Assembly (NCBI RefSeq): GCF_014197435.1
Contig: NZ_JACIFP010000001.1
Span: forward strand, 2,480,001-2,544,000
Length of the DNA stretch: 64,000 bases
Direction: 5' to 3'
Source of the DNA: Gordonia humi
GTDB lineage: Bacteria; Actinomycetota; Actinomycetes; Mycobacteriales; Mycobacteriaceae
The translations under genes were made by a program, and so were the position numbers. This document shows positions 14,332 to 20,692 of this stretch, piece by piece. Position 1 is the first letter of the stretch. Every line of letters begins with the position of its first letter. The notes under the pieces were generated by a model. It worked only from the letters and a program-made list of their open reading frames with translations, did no database searches and was not told the origin of the DNA.

Positions 14332-14421
14332 AACGGTCGAGTGTACGTAATCGAGTAGTCACAGACACATCGGTTGACGCCGGATGCGGAGATTCGTGGT
14401 GAACGTGACACCATTGACGCC

Positions 14422-15672
14422 GTGAGTTCGCAACCGCGCCGAGCAGAGTCAGGCATGCCGACGGTCACCATGATCGGCGGCGGACAGCTGGCCCGAATGA
14501 CCCATCAGTCCGCGATCGCGCTCGGCCAGTGCCTGCGTGTTCTCGCCGCGGGCGACGCCGAACCGGCCGCTCAGGTGAGCGGCGACGTGGTCCTCGGTTC
14601 GCACGAGAGCCTCGAGGATCTGCGGACCGCCGCCGAAGGCGCCGTCGCCCTGACCTTCGACCACGAAGGCGTCCCCCTTCATCTGCTGGAGGCCCTCGAG
14701 GCCGACGGCGTGGCGGTGCGACCGCCGTCGGCGGCCCTGCGATTCGCGCAGGACAAGCTCGACATGCGCAATCGACTGTCCGAACTCGGGCTCCCGGTAC
14801 CCGACTTCGCGGACCTGTCCGGCGACGTCGCCGCCGCACGCGACGAACTGATCGCCTTCGGCGAACGCAACGGCTGGCAGATCGTCCTCAAGGCCGTCCG
14901 GGGCGGCTACGACGGTCGCGGCGTGTGGCTGGTCGACGGGCGCGATGAGGCGCTCGCGGTGTTCGATGCGCACGCCGGGGGCGACACCGTGCTGATGGCG
15001 GAGCAGAAGGTGTCGATGCGTCGTGAGCTGTCGGCGATGATCGCGCGGTCACCGTACGGCCAGGGCGCGGCGTGGCCGGTCGTGGAGACCGTGCAGCGCA
15101 AGGGACAATGCGCCGTCGTGCTGGCGCCCGCACCCGGACTCGACGAGACCGTCGCCGAGCAGGCGCAGCGGATGGCACTGCGACTGGCCGACGAACTGGG
15201 CGTCGTCGGAGCCATGGCCATGGAGCTGTTCGAGACCGTCGACGGCGAACTCGTCGTCAACGAACTCGCGATGCGTCCGCACAACAGCGGCCACTGGACG
15301 ATGGACGGCGCGGTCACCTCGCAGTTCGAGCAGCATCTGCGAGCGGTCCTGGACTATCCGCTCGGCGACACGTCGGCGCGGGCCGAGACCGTCGTGATGG
15401 CCAACGTCCTCGGCGCCGACGAGACCCCGGAGATGTCGGTCGACGAACGAATGCACCACCTGTTCGCGCGGATGCCCGATGCCAAGATCCACATGTACGG
15501 CAAATCCGAGCGACCCGACCGCAAGGTGGGGCACGTCAACATCGTCGGACGTCCCGGCGAACCCGTCGAGGCGGTTCGCGAGCGGGCCGAGCGTGCCGCC
15601 ACCTGGATGTCGACCGCCGTCTGGACCGACGGCTGGAACCCGCACACCGATTCGATCGGAGACCTCACATGA
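14422..15672 (+). CDS. purK: N5-carboxyaminoimidazole ribonucleotide synthase PurK
   Basis: This ATP-grasp enzyme (416 residues from the chosen GTG) converts AIR, bicarbonate and ATP into N5-CAIR in purine synthesis. Motifs are [10 protein letters not shown] near the N-terminus, the ATP-grasp [13 protein letters not shown] loop and the metal-binding [13 protein letters not shown] segment. The GTG at 14422 gives an N-terminus similar in length to the M. tuberculosis protein. An ATG at 14455 ([10 protein letters not shown]) is an alternative, and neither has a strong ribosome site. It overlaps purE by four bases (ATGA). Confidence 0.93.
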
Positions 15673-16182: not shown

Positions 16183-16656
16183 GTGTCGATTCCGGACCGG
16201 GCCCGACTCGAAGCCGCCTGCACCGTCGTCGTCGAGGAGACCCTCGCGGCGATCGCACAGGTCCTCGACGACTGCGACGACGAGTCGGTGAACGCCACGC
16301 CGGTTCCGGGGACGGTGAACTCGGTGTTCGCGCTCGTGACTCACCTGGACGGCGTGATCGCGGACTGGGGTGGCAACCTCGTCGCCGGGGAGGGCATCCC
16401 GCGTGACCGGCCGACGGAGTTCACGGCGCAGGGGACACTCGCGCAGGCGCGGTCGATCCTGGACCGGATGAGCGAACGGCTGCCGCGATACATCCGTCTC
16501 GCGCTGACCGCCGGGATCGAAGCCCCCGGCGCGATCAGCAGCACCCGGGTCGACGCCGCGAGCGCGACCCCCGAATTCGTCGTCGCGCACCTTCTCCGCG
16601 AACTCACCCAACACACCGGACACATGCAGATCTGCCGGGACGTCGTCGGACGTTAG
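16183..16656 (+). CDS. DinB-superfamily protein (DUF664/mycothiol-transferase-like)
   Basis: The 157-residue four-helix-bundle protein has the family's metal-site pattern: an early His (THLDGVIADWG) and a late HLLRELTQHTGHMQICRD segment. In actinobacteria such proteins are often thiol-dependent transferases that use mycothiol. The substrate is unknown. It starts with a GTG just after the purE stop, so it is cotranscribed. Its TAG stop shares bases with the TAA stop of the opposing TetR gene. Confidence 0.82.
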   Translation: MSIPDRARLEAACTVVVEETLAAIAQVLDDCDDESVNATPVPGTVNSVFALVTHLDGVIADWGGNLVAGEGIPRDRPTEFTAQGTLAQARSILDRMSERLPRYIRLALTAGIEAPGAISSTRVDAASATPEFVVAHLLRELTQHTGHMQICRDVVGR

Positions 16657-17303
16657 GGCGCGACGACCGCGGTCGGGAACTGGTCGGGGTGGGTGACCGG
16701 CGCACTGAGCATTCCGGTGGCCGCGTCGATGATGAAGTAGCCGACGGCCGTCCAACTCCCTGACGCGGTACCGGCTTCGACGTCGGTCTCGTAGCTCGCG
16801 CACAGGCGCAGCGTGAGACTCGCGATGAGGCGCATTCGCGCCGTCAACACCGGTTCGGGGACATGAGCCAGCTCGGGGATCGCGCCCATCTGTCCGTCGA
16901 ACTGGACGCTCCGTTCGATGCCGACTCGCAGCGGTTCCTCCACCGACGGCAGGAACATCGCCTGATAGGTGAATCGCGCCCGGTGACCGGGCACCGGCAG
17001 CGAGTCCAGGTATTCGATCCACGGGCGGACGCCCGCGCCGACGAGATCGTGCAGACTCGGCTGATCGGGCAGTTCGCCGAGTATCTGCTCGCGGCGCGCG
17101 GTGATCTGCTCGCGACCGCGGGCGAGCAGTGCCTGAATCATCTCGTCGCGCCCGCCGAAGTGGTATTTGATCGCCGAGTGGTTCGCGGTGCCCGCATGCT
17201 CGGTGATCCGCCTGTTGGAGACGGCGTCGATGCCGTGCTCGGCGAAGAGCTCCTCCGCCGCGTCCAACAGTGTCTCGCGCGCACGGTCGCCGTGCTGTGC
17301 CAT
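16653..17303 (-). CDS. TetR-family regulator, divergent from the duplicated membrane protein
   Basis: The 216-residue protein has an N-terminal TetR helix-turn-helix (ETLLDAAEELFAEHGIDAVSNRRI ... NHSAIKYHFGGRDEMI) and a helical ligand domain. The ATG at 17303 follows GAGGAG. It faces away from the membrane protein gene across a 160-base gap, the usual layout for a TetR repressor controlling a transporter. The inducer is unknown. Confidence 0.88.
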   Translation of the reverse strand: MAQHGDRARETLLDAAEELFAEHGIDAVSNRRITEHAGTANHSAIKYHFGGRDEMIQALLARGREQITARREQILGELPDQPSLHDLVGAGVRPWIEYLDSLPVPGHRARFTYQAMFLPSVEEPLRVGIERSVQFDGQMGAIPELAHVPEPVLTARMRLIASLTLRLCASYETDVEAGTASGSWTAVGYFIIDAATGMLSAPVTHPDQFPTAVVAP

Positions 17304-17396
17304 CTCGGCTCCTCGGAAGTCTCGAATGTGTCTCTCGTTATACCCCCTTCCCAAAATTACGCCATCTGTCTTAAAGTTGATCGGGTAACCGAGGTC

Positions 17397-17463: not shown

Positions 17464-19641
17464 ATGAGCGCATCGATCGACGAGGACGCCGAGGTGACGA
17501 CCGAGGTCGACGCCGAAGCGGCCGAGGCCGCGAAACGAGCGAGGATAGAAGGCGTCGCACGGGTGGTCATCATGTTCCTCATGCCGCTGGTCATGGTCGG
17601 CATGATGATCTGGGGCTACATGGGCGCCATGCATTCGCCGACGCCCCGGGACCTGCCGATCACCGTGTCCGGCCAGGATGCGGGGACGTTCGCCCAGGCA
17701 CTGCGGCAGGCCGACGGGGATGCGGTCGAGGTCCGCGTCGTCGACGATCCGGGTGCCGCCCGTCAGCAGGTGATCGAGCGGGACACGGCGGGCGCCGTGG
17801 TGCTCGACGGGGACACCGCGACGCTGTTCACCGCGGGCGGCGCGGGGGCCTCGCAGGCGGGTGTCACGACCGGTCTGGTGACGCCGGTCGCCGTCGCACA
17901 GGGAATGACCGTCCAGTCCGAGGATCTGGCGCCGCTGCCCGCCGACGACCCGGCCGGACTGGGCGCGATGTTCATGACCACGGCGATCGTGATGGCGGGT
18001 TACCTTCCGCTGTCGATCATGCTGTCGAACTCACCGCATCTGCTCCGACTTCGGCGGTTCCTGCCGCTGCTGGTCGGCTGGGCGGCGCTGATCGCGGGCG
18101 TCATCGCGATCGTCACCTGCCCGATCCTGCACGTCGTCCCGGCCGGTCATCTGCCCGCCGTGATGGGCATCGCGATGCTGGGAGTGGTCTCGATCGGACT
18201 GGTCCAGCTGTTCCTCACGCGAGTGTTCGGTGCGATGGCGACCATTCTGGCCATGTTGCTGCTGATGGTCCTCGGCATGCCGAGCTCCAACCTCAGCATC
18301 TCGATCTACACCGCGCCGCCGTTCTACGACGTCTTCCACTCGTTCCTGCCGCTGCCCGCCATCGGCGAGGCGATGCGGTCGGTGCTGTACTTCGGCGGCG
18401 ACGGTGTCGGCAGGCACCTGATGGTGCTCGGCATCGGCGGTGCGGCCGGGCTCCTCCTGACGATTCTGGTGGACTGGCGCAAGCGTCGGACGTCGCGGTC
18501 GGCGACCGTGCGGTTGAGCATGCCGTCGTTGCGTGGGGCGTCCCAGCCGGACACGCCGTTCTGGCGGTACGCGGCGCTGCTCTTCTTCCCGCTGGCCATG
18601 GTCTCGATGATGATCACGGCGATGCTCGGAGCGATGGGGTCGCCGACCCCGAAGGACATGCCGGTCGCGGTCGTCGCCTCGTCGCAGCAGCAGGCGCAGG
18701 CCGTCGCCGACGGCATGGATGCGCAGATGCCCGGCATGTTCGACGTGAGGGTCGTCGACTCCGCGCAGGACGCCCGCACTCAAGTCGCGGATCGGGACGT
18801 CGTCGGGGCGTTCGTCCTGCCCGGCCCGCCGGATCCACAGGCCACGGTGATCACCAACCAGGCCGCGTCGACGAGTGCCGCACAGGTCGTGAACCAGATC
18901 TTCACACAGGTCGCGCAGGCCCAGCACATGCCGGTGGTCACCGACGACGTCGCGCCGCTGCCCGCGAAGGACAGTATGGGCACGGTCACGATGTACATCG
19001 CGATGGGCTGGCTGATGGCCGGGTTCATGGTGATCATCGTCGGGGCGAACGCCGCGCCGGGCAGTCGGCCGCTGCCCAGGCTGTTGCCGATCGTCGGCGT
19101 GTACTCGGCGTTCATGTCGGGAGTCGTGTTCATCATCGCCCGCTTCATCACCGGCAGCATCGGGGACGGACACGCCTGGCAGCTCTGGGCAGCGGGAACG
19201 GTCGCGATCTTCTGCGTGGCGATGTTCGCGACGGTGTTCGAGAGACTCGTCGGCATGCTCGCGATCGTCCCGGTGATCGGCATTCTGATGTTCCTCGGCG
19301 TACCCGCGTCCAGCGGTGCGATGTCGGTGTACATGGAGGCGCCGTTCTTCCGGGACGTCCACGACATCATCCCGATGGGCGCGGCGGTCGACGCCGCACG
19401 GTCGATCCTCTACTTCGGGAGCGACACGCTCGGCGGCAGCCTGCTGACGCTCGGAGCATGGGGAGTCGTCTCGCTGATCGTCGTCGCGATCATCGACCGG
19501 ATCAAGCCCCTGCGGACCACGTCGGAGATGCTCGAGGTGCCTCATCCCGCCCTCGGCAGCGCGTACGTGCCGAAGGAGGAGTCGGTGGACGCCGATGCGG
19601 ACGACACCGATGAGAAGGTGCTCGTCTCGTCGCACGCATGA
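17464..19641 (+). CDS. Internally duplicated multi-helix membrane protein (ABC-2/YhgE-like halves)
   Basis: The 725-residue protein has two homologous halves offset by about 335-340 residues. Each has one membrane helix, then M[HG]SPTP[RK]D[LM]P (about residues 56 and 390), an extracytoplasmic domain ending in APLPA[DK]D (about 156 and 496), and a bundle of hydrophobic helices with a late APPFYDVFHSFLP / APFFRDVHDIIP loop and S[VI]LYFG. The plan resembles the membrane part of YhgE/Pip and ABC-2-type exporter permeases, written twice in one chain like a fused dimer. No ATP-binding motif is present. The ATG at 17464 has GGGAG upstream. Export is inferred only from topology and TetR control. Confidence 0.75.
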   Translation: MSASIDEDAEVTTEVDAEAAEAAKRARIEGVARVVIMFLMPLVMVGMMIWGYMGAMHSPTPRDLPITVSGQDAGTFAQALRQADGDAVEVRVVDDPGAARQQVIERDTAGAVVLDGDTATLFTAGGAGASQAGVTTGLVTPVAVAQGMTVQSEDLAPLPADDPAGLGAMFMTTAIVMAGYLPLSIMLSNSPHLLRLRRFLPLLVGWAALIAGVIAIVTCPILHVVPAGHLPAVMGIAMLGVVSIGLVQLFLTRVFGAMATILAMLLLMVLGMPSSNLSISIYTAPPFYDVFHSFLPLPAIGEAMRSVLYFGGDGVGRHLMVLGIGGAAGLLLTILVDWRKRRTSRSATVRLSMPSLRGASQPDTPFWRYAALLFFPLAMVSMMITAMLGAMGSPTPKDMPVAVVASSQQQAQAVADGMDAQMPGMFDVRVVDSAQDARTQVADRDVVGAFVLPGPPDPQATVITNQAASTSAAQVVNQIFTQVAQAQHMPVVTDDVAPLPAKDSMGTVTMYIAMGWLMAGFMVIIVGANAAPGSRPLPRLLPIVGVYSAFMSGVVFIIARFITGSIGDGHAWQLWAAGTVAIFCVAMFATVFERLVGMLAIVPVIGILMFLGVPASSGAMSVYMEAPFFRDVHDIIPMGAAVDAARSILYFGSDTLGGSLLTLGAWGVVSLIVVAIIDRIKPLRTTSEMLEVPHPALGSAYVPKEESVDADADDTDEKVLVSSHA

Positions 19642-19660
19642 CCGGAATCGGTGCCCCGAC

Positions 19661-20692
19661 TCAGTTCTGAGTCGAGGCGCCGGTCTGCGTGCGTCGACGG
19701 TGGACGACGAGGACCAGGGCGATGCCGACGACGAGCAGACCGACAGCGGTCACGGCGCCTGCCGCGATCCCGCGTCCGATGCGATTCGCGTGGTCGTACA
19801 CATATGCGGGCGCGGCGTCATCGGAGGTCAGCGACTCGTCGGCCGACGAGAGGTTGTTCGACACCGTGGCCAGCGCCGTCTTGAGCTTGCCGAGCCCGCC
19901 GGACATGTCGTCGGCGGCCTGCTGAGTGTCGGCCTTCGCCGACGCGAGTCGGTCGAGTCCCTCCTTGAGCTGGGACGCGGCCGTGCGCGCCCGGTCGATC
20001 GCGCCGTCGACCTGCCGCGCGGCCGGTCCGGTGGCCGCGGTCGCCTTGTCGAGTTCGCTCCGGAGTGCTCCGAGGTCGCCGACGCCGCCGACGATCTCGC
20101 GCGACGCCGACTGCAGGGACTTGAGCTGCTCGATCGTCTTGTCCGCGCCCGGTACCGTGCTGTGCTCGAGGCCGGAGACGATCGGTGTGACGAGGTCGTC
20201 GACGTCCTCGGCCGACGACGCCAACGACTGGGCCTGTGTCAGGCTCTTCGACACCGTGCCGCCGAGTTCTTCGATCGTAGAGGCGGCGGCGCTCAGACTC
20301 GGCGCGGCGGCGAGGCCGGCGACCATCTGGTCGGCGGCCTTCGACGCGGTGTCGACGGATGCGAATGTGGGTTCGACGGCGGCGGTCACCTTCTCGATGC
20401 CCGCGGTGCCACTGTTCACGGTCGCGGACATCATGTCGATCAGCATCTTGGCCGACGACACCGAGTCCTGCGCCGATGCGACGTCATCGGGACTCAGGTC
20501 GACGGCCGGCGGCCGGAGAGCGGGTTCGGTGTCGAGGAAGACGAATCCGCCGACGGCGACGCCGGTGAGCAGGACGCCGAGTGCCGCGATCGCCGCAGCC
20601 GCGGTCCGACCGGCTCGGCGGGGCGTCTGTGGCGGCGGGGAGGCGTCGACATCGGAGACCGGCTCGTGGCGGGATGGGGAGTCGATCGTCAC
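19661..20692 (-). CDS. Two-helix membrane protein with a long extracytoplasmic coiled coil
   Basis: The 343-residue protein has a helix at about residues 30-55 and a second at about 312-333. Between them lie roughly 250 residues rich in Ala, Ser, Asp, Leu and Lys with heptad character (ATGPAARQVDGAIDRARTAA, LKEGLDRLASAKADTQQAADD). A short basic tail ends the protein. No enzyme motif is seen. It converges on the duplicated membrane protein. YhgE-type proteins carry such a coiled-coil domain in the same chain as the permease-like helices, so these neighbours could be split parts of one system; this is inference. The start is a GTG at 20692 without a clear ribosome site. Confidence 0.65.
   Translation of the reverse strand: MTIDSPSRHEPVSDVDASPPPQTPRRAGRTAAAAIAALGVLLTGVAVGGFVFLDTEPALRPPAVDLSPDDVASAQDSVSSAKMLIDMMSATVNSGTAGIEKVTAAVEPTFASVDTASKAADQMVAGLAAAPSLSAAASTIEELGGTVSKSLTQAQSLASSAEDVDDLVTPIVSGLEHSTVPGADKTIEQLKSLQSASREIVGGVGDLGALRSELDKATAATGPAARQVDGAIDRARTAASQLKEGLDRLASAKADTQQAADDMSGGLGKLKTALATVSNNLSSADESLTSDDAAPAYVYDHANRIGRGIAAGAVTAVGLLVVGIALVLVVHRRRTQTGASTQN

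Follow-up and report, generated by a model that had tools for sequence, protein, structure and literature searches.

A TetR-linked, internally duplicated ABC-2-type permease of Gordonia humi as a candidate stand-alone exporter

In this study we examined a stretch of 64,000 nucleotides from the 5.09 Mb genome of Gordonia humi (assembly GCF_014197435.1, contig NZ_JACIFP010000001.1, positions 2,480,001 to 2,544,000; hereafter the window, whose own positions are used below), which encodes a fused double ABC-2-type permease of 725 aa on the plus strand (17464..19641). The conserved entity at this place is a two-gene unit formed by the permease, a divergent gene for a TetR-family regulator and an 18-bp palindrome between them, with no ATPase gene nearby. 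We see about an even chance that this constitutes a self-contained, TetR-controlled membrane unit, in which the permease would act as a stand-alone exporter made of a pair of ABCA-like membrane domains without ATPases. Since a single permease gene comes with its own repressor and a single palindrome, and no ATPase lies nearby, the unit provides a clean test case, in which the palindrome would offer a direct handle on the inducer and hence on the likely substrate.

In the mechanism that we infer, the TetR protein would bind the single palindrome between the divergent genes and hold both at a low level until, as TetR biology suggests, a hydrophobic or amphiphilic compound releases it. The permease, in which a cytoplasmic linker putatively joins two ABC-2 membrane domains (type V, ABCG/ABCA-like) into a pseudo-heterodimer, would export or extract the inducer through alternating access and would need no ATPase, the transport being probably energised by the proton gradient, by analogy with what has been reported for SbmA. 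An acidic-x-x-R pair occurs at the equivalent place of each half (E302/R305 and D643/R646), and these pairs may be regarded as candidate coupling residues.

The permease is a duplicated membrane module

The permease matches PF12698 (ABC2_membrane_3) with 90.5 bits, over the cut-off of 31.6, and no nucleotide-binding domain (NBD) was found in its chain by a Pfam profile search. PF12051 (DUF3533) was not among its matches at E values up to 1, and the model of the C-terminal part of YhgE/Pip proteins (TIGR03062) was matched under its cut-off (33.9 bits, cut-off 102.2, E 2.3e-8). A profile search of solved structures with a five-sequence permease alignment returned one match only, to an arginyl-tRNA ligase, which is not credible (E 1.2).

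A first-pass annotation of the window, made from the letters alone, had described the 725-residue protein as two diverged copies of one module, and the comparison of its halves bears this out. The N-terminal half (residues 1-350, 17464..18513) and the C-terminal half (residues 351-725, 18514..19638) share 34.6% identity over 321 aa (blastp, E 5.5e-52), and the profile alignment that the annotation had proposed (HHalign; 31 input sequences, of which the program kept 28 in the N-half profile) gave a probability of 100 and an E value of 7e-79 over 318 columns. The short motifs it had named as shared do occur at the corresponding positions of both halves. Each half has six predicted helices, with hydrophobic segments starting at 35, 173, 203, 233, 258 and 322 in the N set and at 374, 512, 544, 578, 599 and 663 in the C set (hydropathy, numbered from a start taken four codons further upstream). 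The offset between the two sets is 339-345 residues, so that the proposed repeat offset stands, while its exact range is slightly larger than the ~335-340 residues originally given.

Each module is arranged as helix 1, an extracytoplasmic domain and helices 2-6, as deduced from hydropathy and from the secondary structure of a low-confidence model. The two extracytoplasmic alpha/beta domains, of ~110 residues each by hydropathy, span residues ~57-165 (17632..17958, between helices 1 and 2) and ~392-505 (18637..18978), and the same low-confidence model predicts an identical order of elements in both, b-a-b-a-b-b-a-b. The duplication is genuine, and the half alignments support the two halves as a likely pseudo-dimer, as the annotation had also suggested.

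A divergent TetR gene and a conserved palindrome accompany the permease

The regulator gene (216 aa, 16653..17303, minus strand), already noted as divergent in the first-pass annotation, encodes a product with 42 bits against PF00440 (TetR_N, cut-off 24), the probable repressor of the unit. A TetR homologue is adjacent to the permease and divergent from it in 36/41 double-permease loci: 27/27 from the search of family genomes, 2/4 named loci, 2/3 further loci of the same genus and 5/7 from another family. Five loci have no adjacent homologue. Two of these, L082 and L148, are apparently one contig that is cut here, in which the tetR start is still detectable as a DNA match. L160 and L161, in G852 and G914, are remoter relatives whose open frames (779 and 794 aa) match the double permease and whose flanking sequence is short, and in which neither a TetR homologue nor a palindrome match under 4 mismatches was found. 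The fifth, L081, has no palindrome match under 4 mismatches either.

Between the two genes lies the imperfect palindrome TTAMGMCA-NN-TGKCKTAA (17357..17374, 0 mismatches in the window), whose conservation makes it a probable TetR operator. The consensus was drawn by eye from 31 tetR-permease regions (window, L041-L067, L082-L084), which included up to ~100 bases of the permease frame, L060 being taken as 300 bases. It occurs with at most 2 mismatches in 27 of these regions and with 3-4 in the other four, against 1/6200 mononucleotide shuffles with at most 2, a test that is partly circular because the consensus came from those same regions. Among nine loci outside the consensus set, seven (L146, L147, L152, L154-L157) carry it with 0-3 mismatches; in these the best match lies in the tetR-permease gap, and the next best has 4 or 5 mismatches. 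The remaining two of the nine are L160 and L161. Ten loci that carry single permeases, tandem permeases or another fusion gave no palindrome under 3 mismatches (the best, L089, has 3). In L047, L049, L051-L059 and L062, a second palindrome-like copy apparently lies directly beside the first in the gap, as judged by eye.

In the host genome the exact site occurs only once, between tetR and the permease, and 2 mismatches bring two further places, the same number as for the reversed control. Because the exact site is unique, the regulator most likely serves the permease and itself only.

This regulation bears on a different reading, that the protein is no transporter and uses its ABC-2 membrane fold as an envelope scaffold or sensor. 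EsaA, YueB and Pip proteins serve as secretion parts or phage receptors, and the sub-cutoff similarity to the YhgE/Pip model, the two extracytoplasmic domains and the lack of a nearby ATPase would all suit such a role. However, a dedicated TetR with a single palindrome suits inducible efflux more than it does a scaffold expressed constitutively, the ectodomains lack the length for a coiled coil of the YhgE/Pip kind, and no third gene recurs beside the pair in the 27 family loci, barring neighbours common to close relatives. We consider a scaffold or sensor quite improbable.

No ATPase is encoded near the permease

The absence of a neighbouring ATPase, recorded in the first-pass annotation, was confirmed by a profile search of the genome, in which the nearest PF00005 place is ~29 kb from the permease and none lies closer. 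The 22 PF12698 matches of the host genome merge to 19 places, 16 of which have a PF00005 place within 2 kb. Two other PF12698 places are likewise orphans (G000:C1:643105-643515 and 2632736-2633023, with no PF00005 place within 65 kb). Two open frames of 830 and 667 aa, each with PF12698 in two pieces (G000:C1:150875-153438 and 4823371-4825817), each have beside them just one PF00005 match, and its score is low (33.7 and 35.1 bits, respectively).

Among 32 relatives, a scan for the Walker A and signature motifs found no ABC-ATPase-like gene in the fetched flanks of 28, and one within ~6 kb in four (L060, L061, L063 and L064). The scan was crude, the genes being taken from a simple caller that called few in L050 and L084; it recovered the ATPases of L068 and L073, which served as controls. 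The gene adjoining tetR in L063 and L064 (L063:11043-12125 and L064:10961-12082) resembles by eye a sugar-import-type ABC ATPase. The host genome also has a distant single paralogue of 397 aa, followed by a 598-aa protein (L068:7530-10567; 2746.5-2749.6 kb). This second protein contains two ABC_tran stretches and an ABC_tran_Xtn domain; we take it to resemble an ABC-F translation factor, and it was therefore not counted as evidence for an ATPase partner.

Alternatively, the permease might belong to an ordinary ABC exporter and rely on an ATPase whose gene lies at another place in the genome. Shared ATPases serve some importers, the host genome offers 125 PF00005 matches, and helices 2 and 3 of the N half are connected by a charged loop, SxxPxLLRxRR, with R197 and R198 in 33/33 rows, that could dock such a partner; the four relatives with an ABC-ATPase-like gene point the same way. 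Nevertheless, most PF12698 places of the same genome have a PF00005 place within 2 kb, the flanks of most relatives lack one by the crude scan, and the uniqueness of the palindrome means that no co-regulated ATPase is seen. A borrowed ATPase is therefore, in our judgement, unlikely, and we retain the stand-alone exporter as the preferred explanation.

Distribution and origin of the double permease

A search of the phylum at E 1e-60 detected the double permease in 2/396 genomes, a count that represents a lower bound, since searching the class with a single permease from Streptomyces turned up five more full doubles in another family. The closest copies are those of Nocardia vermiculata (L081, 79% identical over the whole alignment and 82% in the best segment) and of a Gordonia metagenome-assembled genome (MAG) contig at the same locus (L082, 78% over the whole alignment), whose surrounding gene order is common with the window at 71-81% DNA identity. 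The permease copy of L082/L148 contains an internal stop and a gap of ~61 residues in its second ectodomain, which may reflect decay or an assembly error. Other copies of the same genus are just 51-55% identical (G057, G217 and G205). In a tree of 86 modules, from which the MAG copy was left out, both window halves pair with L081 (100/100), G057 forms the next clade out, and G217 and G205 fall elsewhere. This patchwork of relatives, by identity as well as by tree position, suggests that the permease was horizontally transferred.

In the same tree, 33/33 N halves group in one clade and 33/33 C halves in a second, with 100/99 for both. On a plasmid of Streptomyces sp. NBC_00564, a tandem pair of single permease genes stands behind a divergent TetR gene; one of the two (A) joins the N halves (94/98) and the other (B) the C halves (92/72), neither with the star of the tree tool. 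A different fused ABC-2 double permease with 12 transmembrane segments (L091:5638-8037 in G104, 799 aa) matches PF12698 and DUF3533, and its modules stand beside the A and B lineages of the tandem pairs L089 and L090 (100/100 and 98/86). Long branches were flagged, among others for L068, L069, L091 and L092, and the joins of L091 may be spurious despite their support. In those two tandem pairs (L089:5427-8080 and L090:5728-8186) the called reading frames overlap by 4 bases, and the permeases are perhaps translationally coupled heterodimers.

If these joins hold, A and B would have diverged as separate genes before being fused on two or more occasions, an argument for their acting as a heterodimer; the natural occurrence of split and fused versions likewise suggests the A-B heterodimer as the working form. 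A more specific version of the stand-alone exporter can be put forward: a proton-driven secondary exporter on the type V (ABCG/ABCA) fold, working without an ATPase, in which A and B are obligate partners of a heterodimer and have undergone two or more fusions in actinobacteria. We advance this version tentatively, and it seems more doubtful than probable.

The coiled-coil gene is a neighbour rather than a partner

Downstream of the permease, and convergent with it, the window contains a gene for a coiled-coil protein of 343 aa (19661..20692, minus strand), which we judge to lie outside the unit. The first-pass annotation had rightly noted a separate two-helix protein here, encoded by the adjoining gene: hydropathy detects two hydrophobic segments, at 35 and 312, and a single-sequence model of the protein is otherwise helical, with a mean pLDDT of 64.1. 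It had further interpreted the two genes as parts of a split YhgE/Pip-type system, in which the permease is duplicated and the coiled coil resides in a chain of its own. That they adjoin in this genome and both encode predicted membrane proteins is in keeping with such a split, although their convergent orientation is not, and neither are the surveys that follow.

The coiled-coil gene was found by tblastn in 0/31 double-permease loci and their flanks, mostly of ~8 kb per side (27 loci from the family search, 4 named), and in 0/10 further loci, seven of them with just ~1.5 kb of flank. The co-occurrence survey that had been suggested gave chance-level results. Across 201 family genomes, the full double permease was present in 28 and the coiled-coil gene in 24, and 2 had both (3.3 expected, Fisher p 0.54), namely the genome of the window itself and G028, in which they lie on different contigs. 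Across 59 genomes of the genus, the respective numbers were 5 (one broken, G235, included), 15 and 1, the window's own genome (1.3 expected, p 1.0). The double permease was scored only when a match spanned both halves, and the coiled-coil count comprises all matches at E 0.001, weak partial ones too. G096 and G068 gave partial matches to the double permease in the family search.

Synteny accounts for the adjacency. In G237, G240 and G219 of the same genus (L134-L136), the coiled-coil gene (66% identical) stands between NMO and purE (Pfam), without the tetR-permease pair and also near a homologue of the window gene at 14374..15672, presumably purK. In L082, the permease adjoins NMO and the window stretch with the coiled-coil gene is missing. 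Since each gene is thus found alone there in relatives, the window simply carries both at one syntenic place. The palindrome, exact only between tetR and the permease, gives no sign of shared control with the coiled-coil gene. As a partner of the permease the gene was rejected, the flanks, the co-occurrence counts, the synteny and the palindrome all speaking against it; it has the appearance of an unrelated neighbour, and a split YhgE/Pip system is scarcely credible.

The coiled-coil family itself (window 19661-20692, L070-L080, L134-L144) occurs in many contexts, beside NMO, DnaB and MFS, AftA or a fused ABC/CbiQ protein of 937 aa, and no partner can be named for it because its neighbours change. 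Its members show weak Mce-like matches.

Comparison with known systems

ABCA proteins carry in one chain two copies of a helix 1 - extracytoplasmic domain - helices 2-6 module. The permease resembles ABCA1/ABCA4 in having two membrane modules in a single chain, but it lacks any NBD, whereas ABCA has one after each module, and its ectodomains are only ~110 residues long. The structural match to ABCA covers both permease halves, although the permease model is of low confidence. A passage of PMC9408558 assigns ABCA to ABC2_membrane_3, the family that the permease matches.

The permease likewise shows its weak resemblance to YhgE/Pip proteins in the C-terminal model. These are ATPase-less, and their helix 1 is separated from the permease-like helices by a long ectodomain that forms a coiled coil; the permease is far below the cut-off of their model, has no coiled-coil ectodomain and contains two membrane modules instead of one. 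According to PMC8754111, a YhgE/Pip gene was mutated in both ginkgolic-acid-nonsensitive Enterococcus faecalis isolates, a hint that proteins of this type matter for drug response. DUF3533 proteins, matched by the other fused permease (L091) and not by that of the window, are described in PMC9408558 as members of the ABC-2 clan for which action without NBDs is possible but not certain.

The tandem permeases of Streptomyces sp. NBC_00564 (L085) are 39-42% identical to the window halves and form two tandem modules behind a divergent TetR gene, but they remain two separate genes. Their TetR had no tblastn match to the window TetR at 1e-5, and the locus no palindrome match at <=3 mismatches.

As far as abstracts and passages of the literature show, no description of a unit of TetR, palindrome and fused permease was found; it apparently constitutes a previously undescribed variant among ATPase-less ABC-2-fold proteins. 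SbmA-like peptide transporters offer a parallel in working without NBDs, since the permease has none in its chain and none encoded close by; the ABC fold type of SbmA is different from that of the permease. These transporters are described as proton-driven ABC-type membrane domains without NBDs (PMC13316013) and as homodimeric importers (PMC9408558). If the proposal is true, a proton-driven fused permease would represent the equivalent of SbmA among type V folds.
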